Virus record (IMG/VR): IMGVR_UViG_3300042557_000304
Location: 1-21,790 of that record
Source of the DNA: a virus
Direction: 5' to 3' (one strand)
Length of the DNA: 21,790 nucleotides
In this document: positions 2,393 to 20,226 of the stretch, piece by piece
Layout: each line of letters opens with the position of its first letter
Position numbering within the stretch: the first letter of the stretch is position 1
Made by a program: the position numbers and the translations under genes
Notes under the pieces: model-generated
What the model saw: the letters and a program-made list of their open reading frames with translations, nothing else
What the model was told of the DNA's origin: nothing
Database searches by the model: none

Positions 2393-2975
2393 TTTCAAGT
2401 TTTATTCGTTTTAAATCTTCTTTTATTTCTCTTATCCAATAGTGAGCAGTTACATACGGAAGGTTGAAATATTTACCCATTGCCCTGGCAGTAGTATAAC
2501 CTTTATCGTAGTAAGCTTCAAATATAATTAACTTAATCCTATCTTCAATCGTGTTTCTATAGATCTCAATACAAGATTTATATAACTGATATTTGCGTTC
2601 TTGCTCTATTTTATATATTAAATCGCTATCGTCATTTGTTTCGTTGTTCGTGTATTCGATAGCCGTGACTGATTCGTCTTTATTGCTTTGAGATGTGTTC
2701 CACAATATTTGCTTTTTGATAGTGTTTAGTAGATAGCTTTTAACTTCGTTTTCCGTGTTTAACTCGGGGTTTAGTTCTACTAAGTAAAGATATGCGTTAT
2801 TAATTACGACATCGGCGGTTATGGTGCTATTCATTCGCACCAAAAAATAGTTAGTGTATTTTCTAATCTCGGAGTAGTTCGTGTTTATGTATGTGTCAAG
2901 AATTGCTTTCAACCCATTGCATAAAATCCTTAAACCAAACTCGCCTTCTAACGTTGGAGCAAAAACATTCTCCAT
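2382..2975 (-). CDS. Sigma-like / HTH transcriptional regulator
   Basis: Probably a phage-encoded sigma-factor-like or DNA-binding regulator. The middle (INNAYLYLVEL, then a helix ending YLLNTIKKQILW) resembles sigma-region-2 helices, and the C-terminus (EAYYDKGYTTARAMGKYFNLPYVTAHYWIREIKEDLKR, read in pieces) fits a region-4-like helix-turn-helix with recognition helix near YVTAHYWIREI. The start is uncertain: ATG at 2975 makes the first 26 residues overlap the preceding gene, while a TTG at 2912 would give 176 residues beginning at the better-looking LKAILDTYINTNYSEIRKYT. It lies ahead of the terminase genes and could recognise the bipartite late element found at three structural genes; that link is inference. 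Confidence 0.7.
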   Translation of the reverse strand: MENVFAPTLEGEFGLRILCNGLKAILDTYINTNYSEIRKYTNYFLVRMNSTITADVVINNAYLYLVELNPELNTENEVKSYLLNTIKKQILWNTSQSNKDESVTAIEYTNNETNDDSDLIYKIEQERKYQLYKSCIEIYRNTIEDRIKLIIFEAYYDKGYTTARAMGKYFNLPYVTAHYWIREIKEDLKRIKLENEN

Positions 2976-3099
2976 CCTTTTTTCCCGTTTTTAGTTCTTT
3001 AATCTTCTTTAACTTATTCAGACTAACTTTTGAATATTTAATTACGTCCTGCGAAGCGTTTATTTCGTTTATTACTTCAAGTTCAATTTGTTCAAACAT
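2896..3099 (-). CDS. Small conserved phage protein, ECFCS motif
   Basis: 67 residues from ATG at 3099; an upstream TTG at 3135 would add residues that look unrelated (MFRCVNCFYYRY) and is rejected. The protein has a helical N-terminus and ends with GECFCSNVRRRVWFKDFMQW, a Cys-x-Cys followed by basic and aromatic residues. I recognise this ending as recurring in small Bacteroidota phage proteins located before sigma-like genes, but I know no function for it. Its 3' end overlaps the long form of the sigma-like gene by 80 bases, the main reason to doubt that gene's ATG start. Its start lies inside the last codons of the membrane-protein gene. Confidence 0.7.
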   Translation of the reverse strand: MFEQIELEVINEINASQDVIKYSKVSLNKLKKIKELKTGKKDGECFCSNVRRRVWFKDFMQWVESNS

Positions 3100-3326
3100 A
3101 TATCTATAGTAAAAGCAATTAACGCACCTAAACAAGCAAGTTCAAAACTACCCGTGTAAACCAATGTAGACCAAAAAGACCAACATTTCCAGCATCCCAA
3201 AGACGAATGAATATAGTTAGATAAATGAGTTACAGGAATTTGAGTAAATATAAAATCAAAAAGCAGTTGCAGGGGTTCGAAGTTAACAAACCACCAAGCA
3301 ACTGCTACAATCAGTATTAAATTCAT
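3072..3326 (-). CDS. Small membrane protein with CWKCWSFW motif
   Basis: 84 residues with two hydrophobic segments: residues 2-14 (NLILIVAVAWWFV) and about residues 55-75 (WSTLVYTGSFELACLGALIAF). Between them is GCWKCWSFW, a CxxC followed by an FW pair; a motif of this type is found in DUF1360-like small membrane proteins and in many Bacteroidota phages. The CxxC could bind metal or form a disulfide. The gene follows the zinc-ribbon gene after 3 bases and overlaps the next gene by 28 bases. A role in the host membrane is likely from composition; holin activity is possible but less likely than for the gene at 12796-13008. Confidence 0.7.
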   Translation of the reverse strand: MNLILIVAVAWWFVNFEPLQLLFDFIFTQIPVTHLSNYIHSSLGCWKCWSFWSTLVYTGSFELACLGALIAFTIDICLNKLNLK

Positions 3327-3329
3327 AGC

Positions 3330-3689
3330 CTAATTTTTGGCTAAGTTATTCAATTTTTTCTTATAATTTATTAAACGACCTAATCCACGTGCGCAAGTGT
3401 CTAACCTATAAACGTATTTTTCTGCTAATTCGTGTAATAATCCTTTCTTTGCAGTCATAATAAAGTCTGAATGTAATCGCATTCGTGTTTGCATTCCTTC
3501 GATCATATCATTAATTTCGTCAATACGTTCTTTGATTAATTCAATATCTAATTCTGCTCCCGTTCCTGAACACGACATACATTCGTAATCTACTATATCT
3601 TGTAAATAAGGAATGTCCGTTCCGTTGTGTTCAATTGTAATAGTTCCCCATCCGTCACATTCTTCGCAATGTTTAAGTAAATCTTTCAT
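3330..3689 (-). CDS. DnaJ-like zinc-ribbon plus coiled-coil protein
   Basis: 119 residues. The N-terminus has two CxxCxGxG knuckles, CEECDGWG (C8, C11) and CMSCSGTG (C37, C40), the signature of a DnaJ-type zinc ribbon with one zinc bound by four Cys. Residues 50-119 are charged and helical (KERIDEINDMIEGMQ, then KKKLNNLAKN), probably a coiled coil. It is the first gene of its operon: a Bacteroidota-type promoter lies 32-62 bases upstream, and an AACAATTAA leader ends 13 bases before the ATG. Free-standing zinc ribbons of this type are common in phages of this group; the partner protein is unknown. Confidence 0.7.
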   Translation of the reverse strand: MKDLLKHCEECDGWGTITIEHNGTDIPYLQDIVDYECMSCSGTGAELDIELIKERIDEINDMIEGMQTRMRLHSDFIMTAKKGLLHELAEKYVYRLDTCARGLGRLINYKKKLNNLAKN

Positions 3690-3700
3690 AATTTCTAATT

Positions 3701-3728
3701 TTTTAATTGTTAAACGTGTACAAATATA
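3701..3728 (-). repeat. 28-bp direct repeat, copy 1 (promoter/leader)
   Basis: Exact match to 5862-5889. It covers the TATATTTG -7 box, the palindrome TGTACA just after it and the AACAATTAA leader. The second copy sits in the same relation to the ERF gene, so two operons probably share one control element. Confidence 0.9.
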
Positions 3729-5861: not shown

Positions 5862-5889
5862 TTTTAATTGTTAAACGTGTACAAATATA
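5862..5889 (-). promoter_or_regulatory. 28-bp direct repeat copy 2: ERF promoter/leader
   Basis: Identical to 3701-3728. On the minus strand TATATTTG (5889-5882) is a good -7 box; a clear -33 TTG at 19 bases is lacking (TTTATG is there instead). Behind it come TGTACA and the AACAATTAA leader. Conservation of bases between the -7 box and the leader suggests an operator or leader function as well as a promoter. Confidence 0.7.
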
Positions 5890-11907: not shown

Positions 11908-11938
11908 CAAAGATATGTATACTTTTTAATATAACAAG
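11908..11938 (-). promoter_or_regulatory. Consensus Bacteroidota promoter (TTG-N19-TATCTTTG)
   Basis: On the minus strand TTG (11937-11935), 19 bases, then TATCTTTG (11915-11908), a perfect TAnnTTTG box. Transcription would start near 11901, at the AAACAATTAA leader. The 14-mer GTTATATTAAAAAG (11935-11922) is also in the promoter at 6311-6338. It drives the early small-gene operon directly after a strong terminator. Confidence 0.8.
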
Positions 11939-13273: not shown

Positions 13274-13824
13274 AAGATTAAAATTTGGTTATTATATCCA
13301 TTTCCGTTTTCATAATGGCAAGTTCCGTGACAGCATCCCGAACACCCGTGGCAGTCAATCATTGGTCTTAAATCCGTGTCCCTGTTTTCTTCAGATATAA
13401 ATTCGGGAAAAAGATTTTTGTTTTTAATTAACCATCTAATTAATCTTTGTTCAAAGAATGAAGCCTTTTGTGCGTAGTGTTCCATTCCGAAAGCTACTTC
13501 ACGCTGACTTACCGAACTTGAAAAATCCCCGTTTTGTGTTTGAAGACCTTTGTTTTTAAGTTGGTATGTTAAACCGAATACAGCATCTTCAGCACTTCGC
13601 CAAGCTACAATCGGTTGAATGAATTTAATTAGTGTTTCTTCGTCATTTGTAGCCGTTTGTTGGTTATAAACATCGAGCATATAATTAAAGAAGTAAGTTC
13701 CTAAAATTGGCATTACCCTAAGTTGTGCTTGTGTCGCTATGTAGGGAGTAACATCCGTAACGTCTACATTTGCCGTTATAGGTGTGTTCGTCTTTAGGTA
13801 GTTTTCAGTTATAAAATAAAGCAT
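13270..13824 (-). CDS. DUF6712-like head-tail connector with Cys/His-rich tail
   Basis: 184 residues. The start (YFITENYLKTNTPITANVDV, then PYIATQAQLRVMPILGT) and the middle (WRSAEDAVFGLTYQLKNKG, then FEQRLIRWL) match the DUF6712 proteins I associate with head-tail connection in Bacteroidota phages. Unusual is the end: residues 158-170 contain C, H, C, C, C, H, C and H in 13 positions, followed by an Asn/Gly stretch; this may bind a metal. The ATG is overlapped by the portal stop (TAATG). A connector role is inferred from family and from position directly after the portal. Confidence 0.75.
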   Translation of the reverse strand: MLYFITENYLKTNTPITANVDVTDVTPYIATQAQLRVMPILGTYFFNYMLDVYNQQTATNDEETLIKFIQPIVAWRSAEDAVFGLTYQLKNKGLQTQNGDFSSSVSQREVAFGMEHYAQKASFFEQRLIRWLIKNKNLFPEFISEENRDTDLRPMIDCHGCSGCCHGTCHYENGNGYNNQILIL

Positions 13825-15119
13825 TATACTGCAGGTGTTTCAGGTTTAACAATAGGTTTCAAAGATGCTAAAGAACGAATTTCATCGGGGGTCATATTTT
13901 CTAAAACCTTATTCAATAGTTCGGGATTTAATGAACTTAAACGTGTAGCCAATGCAGATGCTTCTTCATCTACTTCGACAATCGTTTCGTTAATGATTTG
14001 AAAGTTATTAATAACTAACTCACCTTTGACTTTAGCGATATGCAATAACTCGTTAAAGATATCCTGTACAATTTCTCGTAATGGTTTTACTACGTTCTTT
14101 TCAAATATCACATAAGCTTGTTTGATATCCGCACCGCCACCAAGTGAACCCGTAGTACGAACACCCATTAATATAGGATCAATCGTATGTGAAAAACATA
14201 TTTGTTCCGTGTTTAATGCTGAAGCTTCTTGGAATAACTTATCGTTTGAGTTAGTAGGTAGGCTTTCAATCTTAGGCATCTGCTCCGCTGAATTCGCAAA
14301 GAATGCAACTGCTTTTCCTGCGTTTTCCGCTCCTTTTAACTTGTCAATGGTACGTCTTAACACGTTCTTTTCTTCTTCGCTTTGCGGTCTTTTAGGGAAC
14401 ATCATAGCAAATGAAGGGAATATCGAGTTTTGAATATTAGATTTAGCTAAATAGCTAAGTTCACCACTTAAAAAAGCAAAGTTTAACGCACTTGAATACT
14501 GCGGAAGCGGGTAGTAATCTTGACCAATGCACGGTAACTCGAAGATATATAATTGTTCGTAGTCGTTACTTAATGGGTGATATGGTTTGATTTCAAAAAC
14601 ATCTATTCTCGATGCCCAATCTTCGCATATAAAGTAGGTTTTCCCGTCTTTAGAACGTCTTAATTTCTCGGGCGATAGGTTTTCTACTTTCGTAAGTTTT
14701 CCACGTTCTGAAAAGCACAATTTAAAGTAAACTCTATTATGAATAACTAACTGCTTTGTAACGATCGCAGCTACCTTTTTTAGTTTTATCTTCTTTTCGA
14801 ATGCGTAAAGTTCTAATTTTTCTTCGTTTGTTAGCTTTTCAGTTTGAATTGTAAACCCACCACCGATAACCGCATTCACTTTATAATCTACTATTGCGCC
14901 GTGTAAAGGTGAACTATAGTACATTTGGTTCAAAGTTTCAGGATAAAGATTGTCCTGCCCAAATGGAATGTATCCTGCGACTTGATAGCGTCCATTTACA
15001 TAAGGTAGTGCAAGATTTGCACCGCCCACTTTATAAAAAGGTGTAGAAAAACTTTGATAGCCATCCACAACTTCAATGCTTTCTTTTTCACTTTGTCTAA
15101 ATATATCGTACCAAGCCAT
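13824..15119 (-). CDS. Phage portal protein
   Basis: 431 residues. It forms the ring through which DNA enters and leaves the head. The N-terminal half carries FGQDNLYPETLNQMYYSSPL, then HGAIVDYKVNAVIGGGFTI (about 73-110), the pattern of Bacteroidota-phage portal proteins. An RSKDGKTYFICEDW beta segment, a conserved LPQYSSALN region and the C-terminal stem with RTTGSLGGGADIKQAYVIFEK (read in two parts) followed by PLREIVQDIFNEL fit the portal clip/stem order. The length is close to usual for the group. It lies between the 113-residue protein and the connector gene. Confidence 0.85.
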   Translation of the reverse strand: MAWYDIFRQSEKESIEVVDGYQSFSTPFYKVGGANLALPYVNGRYQVAGYIPFGQDNLYPETLNQMYYSSPLHGAIVDYKVNAVIGGGFTIQTEKLTNEEKLELYAFEKKIKLKKVAAIVTKQLVIHNRVYFKLCFSERGKLTKVENLSPEKLRRSKDGKTYFICEDWASRIDVFEIKPYHPLSNDYEQLYIFELPCIGQDYYPLPQYSSALNFAFLSGELSYLAKSNIQNSIFPSFAMMFPKRPQSEEEKNVLRRTIDKLKGAENAGKAVAFFANSAEQMPKIESLPTNSNDKLFQEASALNTEQICFSHTIDPILMGVRTTGSLGGGADIKQAYVIFEKNVVKPLREIVQDIFNELLHIAKVKGELVINNFQIINETIVEVDEEASALATRLSSLNPELLNKVLENMTPDEIRSLASLKPIVKPETPAV

Positions 15120-15122
15120 AAT

Positions 15123-15464
15123 TTAATCGTATATTGAATTTACAATAGTACCCGAAACAACCATTCGACCTTCTTCAATTACATCGCCTGTAGTATCTTG
15201 AATTGTTATAGGGGGAATAAGTGATTCATAAACCGAATAAGAATATTGACCCTTAATTAAATCCACGTCCACGGGTTCGTCTAACTCAAATTGATTAAAC
15301 CTTTCGGGATAAGCTGAAATGTCGGGAGTAGTGAATAAAATAGGTGTGCTTTCGGGATTCATTTCATTCTGAAACACGAATAAATAATAAGGATTCGATA
15401 ACGTACTAACTTCCGTTAACGTTAACACAATACTATTTAATTCGTCTTTGTTTATGTATATCAC
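15123..15464 (-). CDS. Conserved small virion protein (113 aa), GTG start
   Basis: The start is GTG at 15464; no ATG is available near it. The protein is beta-rich (YINKDELNSIVLTLTE, then NPYYLFVFQNE, then QYSYSVYES) and ends with an acidic EEGRMVVSGTI. The pattern INK...IVLTLTE...NPYYLF...VYE...EEGRM is one I recognise in flavobacterial phages among structural genes, often without assigned function. A terminator (15496-15521) separates it from the tail-tube gene, so it and the portal need their own transcription start or read-through; the element AACAAA-N14-TAATATAGT ends one base before the GTG. Confidence 0.7.
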   Translation of the reverse strand: MIYINKDELNSIVLTLTEVSTLSNPYYLFVFQNEMNPESTPILFTTPDISAYPERFNQFELDEPVDVDLIKGQYSYSVYESLIPPITIQDTTGDVIEEGRMVVSGTIVNSIYD

Positions 15465-15465
15465 A

Positions 15466-15494
15466 ACTATATTAAGTTAGTTCGTCTTTTTGTT
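15466..15494 (-). promoter_or_regulatory. Bipartite late element, copy at the 113-aa/portal operon
   Basis: On the minus strand AACAAA (15494-15489), 14 bases, TAATATAGT (15474-15466), one base, then the GTG start. It lies just after the terminator at 15496-15521, where a new start of expression is needed. The same arrangement is seen at 18070-18097 and 19762-19790. Confidence 0.6.
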
Positions 15495-15495
15495 T

Positions 15496-15521
15496 AAAAA
15501 AAAAGCACCCCGAAGGATGCT
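15496..15521 (-). terminator. Intrinsic terminator with TTCG loop
   Basis: On the minus strand a 7-bp stem AGCATCC/GGGTGCT (15521-15515 and 15510-15504, one G-U pair) closed by a TTCG tetraloop, followed by eight T (15503-15496). It lies 22 bases after the stop of the probable tail-tube gene and should cut the capsid operon off from the portal operon. Confidence 0.88.
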
Positions 15522-15543
15522 AATTTTCTTGGAGAAACGTAAG

Positions 15544-16062
15544 TTAAATCACTGAAGTAACCGCTGTTTGTGTAACCTCATATGCAAGATATTCGTTTTC
15601 TGCAGTCAAAGTTACGGAATACTTAGAACCATCGGCTCTCGCAGTTCCCGAACCTTCAGCTGCTCCCGTTAATTGCAAATAAGGGAAGTACCAATACTTT
15701 CCGTTAGCATCTTGAATTATTGCGTTCAAGTATTGCTGACCTGCTCCTAAAACTTTAATCGCTTGTGATTTAGATTGGTCACGGCGATGGAACATTAAAG
15801 TAATGGTTTGAGTGTAATAAGAAGAACCATTAACCAAATCGATGGCTGCTTCTTCAGTATAAGAACCCGTGTTTCTACGGATTTCGAATTCAGTATATGT
15901 ATTTGCGGGTGCAGTCAAGGCGATTGAATCAATTGTCCAAGTTAAAATCGAGTCAAGACCGATGCTCGAAATGTTATCTTGTTGGTTAATCCATACCTTG
16001 TAAATGCCCCCAGAATTGTTATCGCAAGATTTTACAATTCCTTCTAATGCTTCACACGACAT
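15544..16062 (-). CDS. Probable major tail tube protein
   Basis: 172 residues, beta-rich. Segments LDSILTWTIDSIAL, then YTEFEIRRNTGSYTEE, YYTQTITLMFHRRDQSKSQA, LNAIIQDANGKYWYFPY and KYSVTLTAENEYLAYEV give the pattern (FEFRRNT-S/G-xYTE, TQTI-x-L, ANGKYW, LTLT/LTAENE-x-AYEV) of a tube-like protein commonly found in siphophages of Bacteroidota. The gene follows the capsid gene and ends at a terminator, which suits a highly expressed virion protein. A capsid-decoration or tail-knob role cannot be ruled out from sequence alone. Confidence 0.6.
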   Translation of the reverse strand: MSCEALEGIVKSCDNNSGGIYKVWINQQDNISSIGLDSILTWTIDSIALTAPANTYTEFEIRRNTGSYTEEAAIDLVNGSSYYTQTITLMFHRRDQSKSQAIKVLGAGQQYLNAIIQDANGKYWYFPYLQLTGAAEGSGTARADGSKYSVTLTAENEYLAYEVTQTAVTSVI

Positions 16063-16091
16063 AAATATTATTTTTTTTAGTTATTTAAATA

Positions 16092-16109
16092 GGGGGTTTT
16101 TACACCCCC
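16092..16109 (-). terminator. GC hairpin between capsid and tail-tube genes
   Basis: GGGGG/CCCCC (16105-16109 and 16092-16096) with an 8-base loop, followed on the minus strand by AT-rich TATTTAAATAAC without a T run. It is perhaps a weak attenuator or an mRNA-stabilising hairpin that sets the ratio of capsid to tail-tube mRNA. Confidence 0.4.
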
Positions 16110-16127
16110 GTTATTATTTATTTTTGA

Positions 16128-17060
16128 TTAGTCAAAACAAGCTGCCCAAACTGAAATTTGCTCGGGGTTTGTATGATAAAATCCTGCTTTAACATTCGCA
16201 CGTGTACGGATATATGGTTCAGCTACCGTGTCAGTTAAGTTAACTGCTTTCAATGCTTTTGCATCACCTTCAGCGTCAAACGCATAAATCAAATCGTCTT
16301 TCAAAGAAGCTACGATTGTGTTATCGGGCATACCTTCACAAACAATTACTTTAATTCCTAAGTAAGTCATTTGCAATGGAGCAGAAACATATGTTAAAGT
16401 GTTACCAGATGCAGCAGCAAGTTCGTAAGCAGCAGCTACGTTAGAAGAAACACGGATTCTTAAGTCAGCTTTTTTGAATCGAACTGAAGCTGGAAGGCTA
16501 TTTACTACCGTGTTAAATGTAGCAAGTACGTTAGATGAGTTAACCGCACCGCCATTTGAATAAGCCAAGTTAGCACCATCAGCACAAAGTTTTACCAAGT
16601 GACCATCACATAAAGCCAAAAGCGGATTTTCGCTTGTTGTGTCACCTTGCCATCTAATCAATTCGATATCTTCTTCGATTTGCATAGCCATAACGCTCCA
16701 ATAGTAATTCATAAAAGAAGCTACTGAAAAATCGCCATTCGAACCTTGTGTCATTTGTAAAGCTACAAAAGATTGTTCCAAGTCGAATTGGCAAATTTGA
16801 GCCATTGCGCTGAATGCACAAACATCGATGTCGATAGCGTCAAGCGTGTCAGTTGGAGCGCTAAAGTTACAAGTTGAAGCCTGTAAAATTGAACCAAAAG
16901 CTACGTTAGCAATTCGAGCGCGGCTCTTAATTGAAGGCAAAGCACGATAAGAATCAGCTACATCAGCCGTTAAATAAGCTCTTGAATAGAACTCGTTAGG
17001 GTTAGGACAAAGTAAAGCGTTTGTTTCGATGTCCAAGTCGAATTTTAGTTTTCTTTCCAT
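16128..17060 (-). CDS. Major capsid protein
   Basis: 310 residues. It follows the protease/scaffold gene and precedes the probable tail-tube gene, the slot of the major capsid protein. The sequence is Ala-rich and evenly mixed, with features like NPNEFYSRAYLTADVADSYR near the start, ACAFSAMAQICQFDLEQSFV-like helices (about 80-105), SFMNYYWSVMAMQIEEDIEL (about 115-135), and a late beta domain with YLGIKVIVCEGMPDNTIVAS and the ending YHTNPEQISVWAACFD. This fits an HK97-type fold, but no unique motif exists; the call rests on context and size. Its mRNA may be stabilised by the following hairpin. Confidence 0.8.
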   Translation of the reverse strand: MERKLKFDLDIETNALLCPNPNEFYSRAYLTADVADSYRALPSIKSRARIANVAFGSILQASTCNFSAPTDTLDAIDIDVCAFSAMAQICQFDLEQSFVALQMTQGSNGDFSVASFMNYYWSVMAMQIEEDIELIRWQGDTTSENPLLALCDGHLVKLCADGANLAYSNGGAVNSSNVLATFNTVVNSLPASVRFKKADLRIRVSSNVAAAYELAAASGNTLTYVSAPLQMTYLGIKVIVCEGMPDNTIVASLKDDLIYAFDAEGDAKALKAVNLTDTVAEPYIRTRANVKAGFYHTNPEQISVWAACFD

Positions 17061-17079
17061 TTTGGATTTTTATTTGTTT

Positions 17080-18066
17080 TTAGTTATTACTTAATTTATT
17101 CAATGCGCTAAACTTTTCAGCGATTGACATTTTTACTTCCGATTTCATTTCTACTTCTTCTTCGGATCTTTCTGCTAACATTTCCTCCATTTGAGTTCTT
17201 AAGTCAGCAATGATTTTCAAAAGGTTGTTAACTTGTTCTTCAAGAACAGGAGTAACGATAGCTAAAACTGCTTCAGCATCCGCTGTTACATCAACTGCCA
17301 TTTCTTCTTCTTTAACAACTTCTTCAAGTTCTTCTGGCGCAGGTTGTTCGTCAATAGGTTCAGTTTCCGTAGTCACTTCTTCTTCGACAACACTATCCTC
17401 CATAGCCACTTCTTCTTTAGGTGCGTCCTTAATCTCGATAATCTCACCGCCTTTTACGACATAGATTTTACCTTCGATTAGGTGTTCCCCATCGGGTAGT
17501 TTGTTCATATTATATTTATTTATTTGATTACTTAGTTTAAGACCTAAAAACCCTTCGATTGAAAAACCTATTTGTTCGTTTTTTACTAACTCGTTGTAAT
17601 ATTCCTTATCGGTAATTTGAGCCGTTAACATTAACGTACCTTTAGGAACTTCAATTCCAAAAGTCGTAAATGCTTTATCTTGCTTTGGGTTATCTACTAT
17701 CCAAGATTCTAATATAAATGCAGGAACTTGTTGACTTTGGTCGTGTTCTAAATTGAAAATATCACGATTCTTTAAGTCTTGCATAAACTTGACGTGGATT
17801 TGTTCTATTGTTTCTGCGGTAAATTGAACGTAGTATTCTCCTGTTTCGTCATCCCTTCTATAAATTTCCATTGGAATCATAGCAGGAGCAGTAACACGGT
17901 ATTTTACATCGTCTGCAAACATTAATTTATTCGATTGATTAAATGCCATTCCTTTAACCTTTATAGCAGGGTTAGAAGTAAAAGCAATTTGCTCAATCCC
18001 TAAATCTTCGCCATCGGAATAATCGGGGTCAATAGTGATTTTATATATAGGTAAATCCTTTGTCAT
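17080..18066 (-). CDS. XkdF-like (S78) prohead protease fused to scaffold domain
   Basis: 328 residues. Residues 1-180 are an XkdF/S78-type prohead protease: IEQIAFTSNPAIKVKGMAF, then H108 in NLEHDQ, FILESWIVDN (117-126), and S169 in IGFSIEGFLG, giving the Ser-His core of phage maturation proteases. Residues 215-280 are an acidic Glu-rich linker, and about 260-328 form a coiled coil (VNNLLKIIADLRTQMEEMLA) of scaffold type. One polypeptide thus supplies core and protease, as in other protease-scaffold fusions. The ATG is 3 bases after TAATATAGT. The plus-strand gene pair starts 46 bases away, divergently. Confidence 0.88.
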   Translation of the reverse strand: MTKDLPIYKITIDPDYSDGEDLGIEQIAFTSNPAIKVKGMAFNQSNKLMFADDVKYRVTAPAMIPMEIYRRDDETGEYYVQFTAETIEQIHVKFMQDLKNRDIFNLEHDQSQQVPAFILESWIVDNPKQDKAFTTFGIEVPKGTLMLTAQITDKEYYNELVKNEQIGFSIEGFLGLKLSNQINKYNMNKLPDGEHLIEGKIYVVKGGEIIEIKDAPKEEVAMEDSVVEEEVTTETEPIDEQPAPEELEEVVKEEEMAVDVTADAEAVLAIVTPVLEEQVNNLLKIIADLRTQMEEMLAERSEEEVEMKSEVKMSIAEKFSALNKLSNN

Positions 18067-18069
18067 CTC

Positions 18070-18097
18070 ACTATATTAAAATTTATTTATATTTGTT
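18070..18097 (-). promoter_or_regulatory. Bipartite late element, copy at the protease/capsid operon
   Basis: On the minus strand AACAAA (18097-18092), 13 bases, TAATATAGT (18078-18070), three bases, then ATG. On the plus strand the same region holds TATATTTG (18088-18095), so both directions use this divergent spacer. Confidence 0.6.
18088..18095 (+). promoter_or_regulatory. -7 box of the plus-strand gene pair (TATATTTG)
   Basis: A perfect TAnnTTTG box 16 bases before the ATG at 18112. The nearest TTTG upstream (18059-18062) is 25 bases away, longer than the usual 19, so only the -7 part is convincing. Confidence 0.5.
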
Positions 18098-18111
18098 CAA
18101 AAATTATAAAG

Positions 18112-18654
18112 ATGATTGAAGTACTTGGGCGCAATATTGCCAATAAAATGAACGAGATTACCATTGAAGAATTCGAAAAGATTTCTAACATTCACAATAA
18201 TTCAGAACTCGATAACATCGAAAAACAAATCAAAGTTTTTGAAGTAGTAGGAATCGAAGAAGATGAATGGGATGATTTTAAATACTTCGTTGAAAAAACC
18301 AAAGAATTCAATACCGATAATTACGAACCTAAAGACCCTATCGGTGAAATAGAAATAGACGGATTTACTTATAAAGCGGAATTAAAACTTTCAGTAAAAG
18401 ATACGAAACTAATCGAGAAAATGATTACTAAAGAAAATAAACATTCCGTATCCGATATTATGGCTTTGATGTTTAAACGAACCGATTTAAGTAACACGGA
18501 ACACTACGATTCAGCGCACTTAAAACACAAATCTAAACTATTTAGAACTCAAGTAGCTGAAATCGCAATCCCTTATTTGAATTATGTCACAACTACAATC
18601 TCTGACCACGCTAAAAAACAAGCTGCCGAAAGCGTGGAATCAAATAACGATTGA
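18112..18654 (+). CDS. Plus-strand tail-assembly-chaperone-like protein A (180 aa)
   Basis: Begins MIEVLGRNIANKMNEITIEE. It has an N-terminal helical domain (ITIEEFEKISNI, then QIKVFEVVGIEEDEWDDFKY), a short beta section (IGEIEIDGFTYKAELKLSVK) and a C-terminal part (IMALMFKRTDLSNTEHYD, then FRTQVAEIAIPYLNYV). The next gene repeats this order. Position beside tail genes and tape measure suggests a tail assembly chaperone, as does the overlap of the two genes. Both genes lie on the plus strand, against everything else. The last 71 bases overlap the second gene in a different frame. Function is inferred from place only. Confidence 0.6.
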   Translation: MIEVLGRNIANKMNEITIEEFEKISNIHNNSELDNIEKQIKVFEVVGIEEDEWDDFKYFVEKTKEFNTDNYEPKDPIGEIEIDGFTYKAELKLSVKDTKLIEKMITKENKHSVSDIMALMFKRTDLSNTEHYDSAHLKHKSKLFRTQVAEIAIPYLNYVTTTISDHAKKQAAESVESNND

Positions 18655-19348
18655 AACATTTATAGAACTAAAGACCCTATCCGATGAAGATGGGGTTTTT
18701 AACTATCAAATTGATGTTCTTTGTACGTTGTTAGACTGCTACCCCGAAGACATTGAAGAACTTGCTATCGAAGAACTTGAAGAACTACTACTATCGGTAA
18801 AGTTTATACGGGATGAACCACCAAAAAACTACAAATCTGAACTTGGCGAATATAAACTAAAGCCATTTAACAAAATAACGTTAGGTGAATTTATAAGTTT
18901 AGAAGCTTATTTCTCGGATAACTACCTTTTAAAGCTACTTAACATCGTTGCTATTCTTTACAGGCGAGTTCGTGTTAATGAATGGGGTGACGAAACATTA
19001 GAACCTTACAATTATCATTCGAATGATCGCTTAGATTGGTTTTTAGACTTTCAAATAACGGATGTTTTCGGATTACTCCCCGAATATATAAAATTTCGTG
19101 AAGATATAATCGACCAATATAAAAACCTAATGACCGAAAGTTATGAAGATGACTTCGAAATCGATTCTAATATGGATGCCGAAGATTTAAAAGCAGCCGA
19201 AGAAGAAAAGAAGCAGCAGAAATGGGCCTGGGAAACTTTAATTTGGCATTTGTGCAATGAAGACTTAACTAAGTTTCACGCAGTTTGCGACCTTCCGTTA
19301 ATACTTGTGTTTAATTTCTTAGGAATGAAAAAAGAATTGAACGTTTAA
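18584..19348 (+). CDS. Plus-strand tail-assembly-chaperone-like protein B (254 aa), paralogue of A
   Basis: It repeats the plan of the gene before it: ITIETFIELKTL, then YQIDVLCTLLDCYPEDIEEL; a beta section ELGEYKLKPFNKITLGEF; and LNIVAILYRRVRVNEWGDE, then LEPYNYHSNDRLDWFLDFQI. An extra C-terminal domain (DDFEIDSNMDAEDLKAAEEE, then KQQKWAWETLIWHL) is not in the first. It is in the +1 frame relative to the first gene and starts with ATG 71 bases before that gene's stop. The stop TAA overlaps the opposing gene's stop. It may make its own start, or be reached in part by frameshifting; the domain repetition favours an independent gene. Confidence 0.6.
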   Translation: MSQLQSLTTLKNKLPKAWNQITIETFIELKTLSDEDGVFNYQIDVLCTLLDCYPEDIEELAIEELEELLLSVKFIRDEPPKNYKSELGEYKLKPFNKITLGEFISLEAYFSDNYLLKLLNIVAILYRRVRVNEWGDETLEPYNYHSNDRLDWFLDFQITDVFGLLPEYIKFREDIIDQYKNLMTESYEDDFEIDSNMDAEDLKAAEEEKKQQKWAWETLIWHLCNEDLTKFHAVCDLPLILVFNFLGMKKELNV

Positions 19349-19758
19349 TATTCCAATGCGCTCCAAAACTCACCGAATAACGGATTAAAGTCATAGATTA
19401 CATTTTGTTTTTTACGTAACATTCCTGCAACTTGAACAAGGGGATATTTAGAACCTAACCATTCTATATATTGTGCGTACATTTCAGAAATAATACCTTC
19501 TTGTTCTAAACGTCTATTGAATTGTCTAACTAAATGATAAGGTTCGATTGATATTGTTCCGTTATTTAGAAAGCCGAAGTAATATGCCGCAAGTATTTCG
19601 ATTCTTAAATTACCTTCAGTAGTGAATTTAGCATTAATACGGATTGATTCGTAAAGTGTTCCTGTATCTATTAACGCATCTTCTTTAATTACACGCTTTA
19701 GAACTTGGGCAGCTTTGTTCCGTATCTTATACTTTAGTTTAAATTCTTTATCGGGCAT
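19345..19758 (-). CDS. HK97-gp10-like tail completion / neck protein
   Basis: 137 residues. The N-terminal KYKIRNKAAQVLKRVIKEDA, then LIDTGTLYESIRINA, is the D-T-G-x-L-x-x-S-[IL] pattern of HK97 gp10-like proteins, which join tail to head or complete the tail. A beta strand follows (LRIEILAAYYFGFLNNGT). The C-terminal half, with YHLVRQFNRRLEQEGIISEM and YAQYIEWLG, is less typical. TAATATAGT lies 3 bases before the ATG. The gene converges on the plus-strand pair, with stops overlapping by 4 bases and no terminator seen. Confidence 0.65.
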   Translation of the reverse strand: MPDKEFKLKYKIRNKAAQVLKRVIKEDALIDTGTLYESIRINAKFTTEGNLRIEILAAYYFGFLNNGTISIEPYHLVRQFNRRLEQEGIISEMYAQYIEWLGSKYPLVQVAGMLRKKQNVIYDFNPLFGEFWSALEY

Positions 19759-19761
19759 ACG

Positions 19762-19790
19762 ACTATATTATTTTTAATCTTCGTTTTGTT
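19762..19790 (-). promoter_or_regulatory. Bipartite late element, copy at the gp10-like gene
   Basis: On the minus strand AACAAA (19790-19785), 14 bases, TAATATAGT (19770-19762), three bases, then ATG. Part lies within the end of the upstream gene. Confidence 0.6.
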
Positions 19791-20226
19791 TAGGAACTTG
19801 ACAATCCGTGTAATTATTTATTGAACACGTTAAAGTCATAACCCACCCCGCAGCATAGTCTAACAAGTCATTATTTAAAGGGGTCATAGTTGGAATTCCT
19901 ACAATATCGAAATCGTAATCGTCCGAGTTTAAAAACCAATTGTAAAGATCGTTTAATATTAAATGGCAATCGCTTAAAATTACGTTTATATTCGCTCGGT
20001 CTTTTTGTATAATATCAAAACAATATATCTCTAAACTTATTTCGGTAGTAAAACCCATTTCGCTCGGAATAGCATCTACAGGACAAATATAAACTAAAGG
20101 ATATTTTTCGTCTTTTGTAGCGAAGTTTTCTAATTGCTCCCTAAAATCCGAACCAACTTTTTTAACTTGTAAATGACTATCGTAAAAACCGATTATCTTA
20201 TTTACTAAACTTATATAACTTATCAT
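19774..20226 (-). CDS. Tail-terminator-like minor tail protein
   Basis: 150 residues. A helix-rich start (ISYISLVNKIIGFYDSHLQV) is followed by a beta segment (KYPLVYICPVDAIPSEMGFT, then TEISLEIYCFDI), helices (NVILSDCHLILNDLYNWFL) and a closing beta part (AAGWVMTLTCSINNYTDC). The D-x-x-A-G-W-x-M-x-L-x-C ending, with final CQVP, is a pattern I have seen in Bacteroidota phage proteins that lie by the tape measure. The domain order resembles gpU-like tail terminators. It overlaps the tape-measure gene by 4 bases (ATGA). Moderately sure of tail role, less of exact function. Confidence 0.55.
   Translation of the reverse strand: MISYISLVNKIIGFYDSHLQVKKVGSDFREQLENFATKDEKYPLVYICPVDAIPSEMGFTTEISLEIYCFDIIQKDRANINVILSDCHLILNDLYNWFLNSDDYDFDIVGIPTMTPLNNDLLDYAAGWVMTLTCSINNYTDCQVPKQNED

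Follow-up and report, generated by a model that had tools for sequence, protein, structure and literature searches.

A two-part element before three late genes

The window, by which we mean the whole 21,790-bp stretch of viral DNA analysed here, carries on its minus strand genes for a portal protein (13824–15119; phrog_11226, 2.7e-28) preceded by a small conserved gene (MIYxxK..., 15123–15464), a major capsid protein (16128–17060), an XkdF-like head maturation protease (17080–18066; PF14550, 3.7e-11) and an HK97-gp10-like tail completion protein (19345–19758; PF04883, 2.4e-5). No relatives of the capsid protein were found in 50,697 phage records. A search of the window for the pattern AACAAAN{12,16}TAATATAGT returned exactly three matches, all on the minus strand, with 0 expected from 100 shuffles. 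They lie at 15466–15494, 18070–18097 and 19762–19790 in the form AACAAA-N13/14-TAATATAGT, which are the positions given in the original prediction. Its accompanying observations also proved correct: TAATATAGT ends 1 nt before GTG 15464 and 3 nt before each of ATG 18066 and ATG 19758, and perfect copies occur in the window at these three places only. Copies with one mismatch are about as frequent as expected by chance (18 versus 12.6).

Each of the three matches was treated as a putative late promoter. Site 1 consists of AACAAA (15489–15494), 14 nt and the box TAATAT (15469–15474) followed by AGT, with 4 nt between the box and GTG 15464, and is proposed to drive the unit of the small gene and the portal gene. 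Directly upstream lies an intrinsic terminator on the same strand, a stem-loop (15521–15504) followed by 8 T with a dG of −14.4 kcal/mol and a z of −4.4, so that a new transcript has to begin within the following ~40 bp if the next gene is to be expressed. Site 2, composed of AACAAA (18092–18097), 13 nt and TAATAT (18073–18078) placed 6 nt before ATG 18066, is located inside the 45-bp spacer which separates two divergent start codons; it would drive the protease gene and, downstream in the same unit, the major capsid gene, whose own start lacks TAATATAG. Site 3 (AACAAA 19785–19790, 14 nt, TAATAT 19765–19770, 6 nt to ATG 19758) would drive the gp10-like gene. The contexts first assigned to sites 1 and 2, behind a terminator and in a divergent spacer, are thus present, while that of site 3 needs refinement: the preceding gene, 19774–20226, runs in the same direction and ends with a stop codon that overlaps the site, and no terminator was called there. 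Neither site 1, at most ~40 bp from the strong terminator, nor site 2, confined to its 45-bp spacer, leaves other room for a promoter. Most late genes of the window, the one for the major capsid protein among them, carry no such element at their starts.

Conservation and lineage-specific forms of the element

Relatives were collected by a capsid search, which gave 80 viral contigs of 69–97% identity, by an alignment search, which added more, and by a search with the sigma-like protein described below, which gave 80; they originate from uncultured freshwater viruses. Hundreds of related phage contigs carry the element before a small, recurring set of late genes: the gene after terminase, gp10, the tape measure gene, the unit of protease and capsid, and the small pre-portal gene. 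A survey of 27 phage genomes from six lineages comprised 233 distinct sites at these late genes. Upstream regions of orthologues carry the element at the same genes as the window; deeper lineages have it, in addition, before the tape measure gene and before the gene that follows the large terminase. In clade G, the contig behind L189 has the full set of four, at the terminase-next, gp10, protease and pre-portal genes; the terminase-next site of clade A is located outside this window. In the sampled genomes the equivalent of site 1 still precedes the small pre-portal gene, its box differing by lineage and the copies of lineage E being divergent.

The box reads TAATATAG in lineages A, B and G (often TAATATTG at the terminase-next site of clade A), TAATATTG/GG or TAATATGG in lineage C, (TA)CAATATAG in lineage D, TATTATAAG with the variants TATTATTAAG and TATT(C/G)TAA in lineage E, and CATTATAG or CATTAT(A/T)G in lineage F. 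Its versions across the lineages (TAATATAG, TAATATTG, TACAATATAG, TATTATAAG or CATTATAG) are shared by the sites of a lineage together. As the three to five sites of a genome are non-homologous and yet have the common box of their lineage, one trans-acting reader is indicated.

Across the 233 unique sites, the spacer from AACAAA to the box is mostly 13–15 nt long (14 nt at 22 of 22 gp10 sites, 13 or 14 nt at the protease, 14 nt at 33 of 40 s1 sites), whereas anything between 4 and 8 nt separates the box from the start codon; the commonest value, 4 nt, applies to almost every CAATAT site and to more than half of those with TAATAT. Of the 233 sites, 179 have AACAAA or a close variant of it. The match to AAC is weak at two positions, s1 in lineage D (AATTAA) and the tape-measure site in clade B. 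A fixed distance between AAC and box combined with a loose distance between box and start codon is promoter-like, while a translation signal anchored at the start codon should show the reverse.

Two groups of further candidates were set aside. Many relatives have another TAATATAGT 39 nt into gene s1, which was taken as coding sequence (GTA AAT AAT ATA GTG), and minus-strand copies of TAATATAG in L043, L047 and L080 appear from sequence and position to be the reverse strand of the host-type early promoter found at 11908–11937. A distant relative, L270 (Bacteroidetes MAG contig CAINWZ010000075.1; capsid 56% identical), has TTATAATATATAA-ATG upstream of its protease, apparently a further variant of the box.

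IMG/VR was also scanned without any protein query, using AACAAAN{13,14}TAATATAGTTATG (A/G-type) and a D-type pattern, and at least 133 distinct A/G-type sites and 29 D-type sites were obtained. Among the matches listed, nearly all precede, by inspection, the same structural gene families, which include gp10-like MAYKNTGEFN.., terminase-next MSNDVMK.. and MGWWGNW..; the one clear exception among them is L330, and a few sites are cut off by contig ends. As a practical by-product, the DNA pattern alone locates late genes and relatives of these phages.

A sigma-like protein encoded by the phage

An ORF at 2382–2975 on the minus strand had been put forward as a sigma-like gene starting at ATG 2975. 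The ORF exists, but it aligns unbroken to distant relatives only from residue 22, and the start common to the homologues is TTG 2912, giving a protein of 176 aa (2382–2912); in other lineages the start codon is ATG. The AlphaFold model (mean pLDDT 81, pTM 0.42) predicts helices at residues 2–26, 33–47, 54–76, 96–121, 125–135, 142–149 and 153–175, which form two helical domains (2–76 and 96–175), sigma2-like and sigma4-like, joined by a linker. Comparison with the PDB by Foldseek returned mostly ECF and other sigma factors (MtbSigH, SigL, AlgU, sigmaE, SigW) with a modest best E of 0.014, and matches in BFVD were mostly phage RpoE/sigma-70 proteins. Sequence models matched far less well: TIGR02937 gave 13.7–14.2 bits, far below its cut-off of 42.9, the TIGR02985, RinA and sigma-32 models gave weak matches below their cut-offs, and Pfam returned a weak Mga HTH only. 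A profile search against PDB chains yielded no sigma, which fold comparison alone gave, and no relative was found in 50,697 phage records. By predicted structure the 176-aa protein is an ECF-type sigma, with sigma2 and sigma4 domains and nothing else; given the sub-cut-off sequence score, we call it ECF-like and not a member. Its designation as a phage-encoded sigma draws on this fold and on the order of the domains, the sequence score by itself being weak.

The position of the sigma gene, between the early genes and the terminase genes, is usual for late regulators. Of 24 contigs from lineages B to G, 19 yielded the gene; the other five comprise four shorter contigs (16–25 kb) and G016 (29.7 kb). 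All 13 long contigs tested from the DNA-motif scan encode a homologue (E 5.6e-62 to 2.7e-86), a co-occurrence which is limited as proof, as shared ancestry can explain it. On each of the sigma, capsid and portal gene trees the type of motif needs a minimum of three changes, and sigma is not singled out. The ECF-like fold and the co-occurrence support the proposal that this protein is the reader of the element, and we infer that it very probably reads it.

Upstream, a small ORF (2896–3135, minus strand) overlaps the sigma start by ~17 nt, and the region before sigma is alike across lineages though the sigma frame there is broken by stops. This pattern suggests, at the level of sequence, a possible translational coupling of sigma with the upstream gene.

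Putative host-type promoters before early genes

A contig with a related capsid, in which TAATATAG stands directly before the pre-portal gene, is binned in a Bacteroidetes MAG; it supports Bacteroidota as the host phylum, with the usual caveat of binning. Promoters of the Bacteroidota primary sigma have the form TTTG/TAHHTTTG, and mRNA leaders in F. johnsoniae have a mean length of 33 nt (PMC6847099). Putative early promoters of this type (TAnnTTTG) occur on the minus strand of the window. The exact 20-mer TATATTTGTACACGTTTAAC is repeated upstream of two early genes (chance expectation 0.01), at 3709–3728, 31 nt from the box to ATG 3689 so that a leader is expected, and at 5870–5889, before an Erf-like gene and 28 nt from the box to ATG 5853. 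A further one, TTG-N19-TATCTTTG, lies at 11908–11937. Over the whole window, boxes of the host type are about as many as chance predicts (23 versus 23.6 expected), and therefore only the repeated 20-mer and the TTG-N19 case were used as host-type promoters. Early genes appear to be expressed from TTG/TAnnTTTG promoters with leaders of roughly 20–30 nt. The first gene behind one of the twin promoters (3330–3689, minus strand) encodes 119 aa, whose N-terminus resembles a zinc finger (CxxC-x(n)-CxxC); this protein has weak DnaJ, anti-TRAP and antiterminator Q-like matches and is another candidate regulator.

The element as a probable late promoter

The best explanation, and in our judgement a likely one, is that the element is the late promoter of the ECF-like sigma in a small (~30 kb) Bacteroidota phage family. 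AAC(AAA) would serve as the −35-type and TAATATAG as the −10-type element, spaced by 13–15 nt, and the phage's own sigma would switch on the structural genes through this private two-part promoter. The element is conserved, low in copy number, placed before late units and distinct from the host consensus. A −35/−10-like late promoter had been suspected from the start, and this is supported by the spacing from AAC to box, by the concerted changes of lineages at non-homologous sites and by the placement at starts of transcription units, whose late timing is presumed. The −10 register proposed at that time, TATAGT, had to be given up: transcription would then start beyond the start codon, yet the first residues of each protein are conserved. 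TAATAT, which conforms to TANNNT, fits better and places the predicted transcript start right at the start codon. In −12/−7 numbering, with TAATAT as the −10 box and 6 nt to ATG, the predicted +1 is the A of ATG, and with boxes ending 4–8 nt before the start codon, transcripts would generally begin at or within a few nt of this A. A TANNNT box is thus found about 10–12 bp before the start codon, CAATAT and CATTAT conforming only if C is accepted for the first T. Late mRNAs are probably leaderless or near-leaderless at their predicted 5' ends.

The earlier concern that transcription would begin at or within the start codon persists for the many 4-nt sites, the commonest case, at which the start would need a short discriminator. 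In clade A, a GTG stands directly behind site 1, and GTG is not the preferred codon of leaderless mRNAs. By analogy with phiEco32, where starts lie 6–8 bp downstream of the element (PMC8948821), transcripts from 4-nt sites would begin inside the codon, which counts against the promoter reading. More tentatively, the family may render its late structural operons leaderless by phage-sigma promoters abutting the start codon and so separate late translation from the leadered, Shine-Dalgarno-independent mode of the host, sigma and promoter having co-diversified over at least five lineages.

It is unlikely that these late promoters are read not by the phage sigma but by the host primary sigma with the help of a RinA/Ltr-like phage activator. 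TAATATAG, the clade A box, has T-12, A-11, T-7 and G-5 in common with the host −7 box TAHHTTTG; the RinA model is weakly matched by 6 of 27 sigma homologues, and Staphylococcus phage regulators of the RinA/Ltr kind drive one late unit (PMC13123087). However, the boxes of lineages D, E and F drift from TAnnTTTG while the host-type −7 box TATATTTG is unchanged in the same genomes. The late boxes lack T-8 and T-6, AAC replaces TTTG, and neither a TAnnTTTG box nor a TTTG ~19 nt upstream is found at the late sites. No upstream repeats were seen, and the modelled protein has both sigma2-like and sigma4-like domains.

A ribosome-recruiting element, raised as an alternative in the original prediction, is quite improbable. 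Transcripts would then begin upstream, and TAATATAGT would recruit ribosomes or a phage translation factor in hosts without Shine-Dalgarno use; TAATATAGT indeed abuts the start codon, and Bacteroidota use an A-rich context near the start codon in place of a Shine-Dalgarno sequence (PMC6847099). This reading is disfavoured by the loose distance to the start codon as opposed to the fixed distance to AAC, by the absence of the element from the majority of late genes, including that of the major capsid protein, and by its position at unit starts, two of which leave no space for an upstream promoter. Nor does it resemble a Shine-Dalgarno or structured ribosome-binding site, which would be GA-rich or structured and fixed in spacing: the distance is variable, and a conserved RNA fold was not found (z −0.2 to −0.7). 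Another alternative, in which a repressor or activator of late genes binds an operator over the start codon and the promoter lies elsewhere, would agree with a conserved bipartite site in few copies but is highly improbable, as the site is not palindromic, the 13–15 nt spacing and TANNNT-like core suit a promoter, and site 1 showed no further promoter candidate from the terminator to the start.

Relation to known promoters

For a late promoter of a phage sigma, the closest known counterparts are the promoters of phiEco32 gp36 and phage 7-11 gp47 (PMC8948821). The gp36 sigma of phiEco32 acts at middle and late promoters with the core tAATGTAtA, which has 6 of 9 letters in common with TAATATAGT; as here, a sigma-like protein is encoded by the phage and few well-conserved promoters precede late genes (PMC8948821). 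Unlike our case, phiEco32 has a single element and a sigma without recognisable region 4 (PMC8948821), whereas here an AAC element is added, the protein has a sigma4-like domain and the box stands 4–8 nt from the start codon. The late promoters of 7-11 gp47 (GTAAtg-16-aCTA) are likewise bipartite, and divergent relatives of this sigma go with divergent promoters; they differ in their sequences and in the enterobacterial host, and tight packing on start codons is not described in the part of the source consulted (PMC8948821).

ECF sigma promoters share AAC in the upstream element, which here is weak at s1 of lineage D, and are read by a two-domain sigma; that of Bacillus sigmaP has AACA at −35 and TA at −10 (PMC8791391). 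TAATATAG differs from the CGT-type −10 of ECF promoters in F. psychrophilum (PMC9723704). In position and sequence the box agrees with TANNNT ~10–12 bp before the start, a known sign of leaderless genes which is rare in Bacteroidetes/Chlorobi, with 1 of 37 genomes flagged (PMC3160421). Leaderless mRNAs make up 5.5% in F. psychrophilum (PMC9723704), whereas here the feature is limited to phage late genes.

If the promoter reading is true, sequence alone would provide a full transcription plan for uncultured phages of a poorly studied phylum: early promoters of the host type, a sigma of the phage's own and four or five late promoters. The lineages would provide a natural series of sigma/promoter pairs for work on specificity in bacteria in which standard promoters do not work, and would make it possible to test directly how well leaderless mRNAs are translated by Bacteroidota ribosomes.

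The divergent gene pair at site 2

Two overlapping genes of 180 and 254 aa (18112–19348, plus strand) run opposite to all other late genes of the window, and this inversion is retained in the lineages compared. From where they lie and how they overlap, they may encode tail assembly chaperones, although no family match was found. The first gene (18112–18654) is preceded by the host-type −7 box TATATTTG at 18088–18095 on the plus strand, which overlaps AACAAA of site 2. Within 18088–18097, TATATTTG shares DNA with AACAAATATA, the upstream element of site 2, in lineages A–D and G; in lineages E and F and in L119, TATATTTG also lies upstream of the divergent gene, there separate from the late element. 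The overlap of TATATTTG and AACAAATATA is possibly an either/or switch between the two late units.
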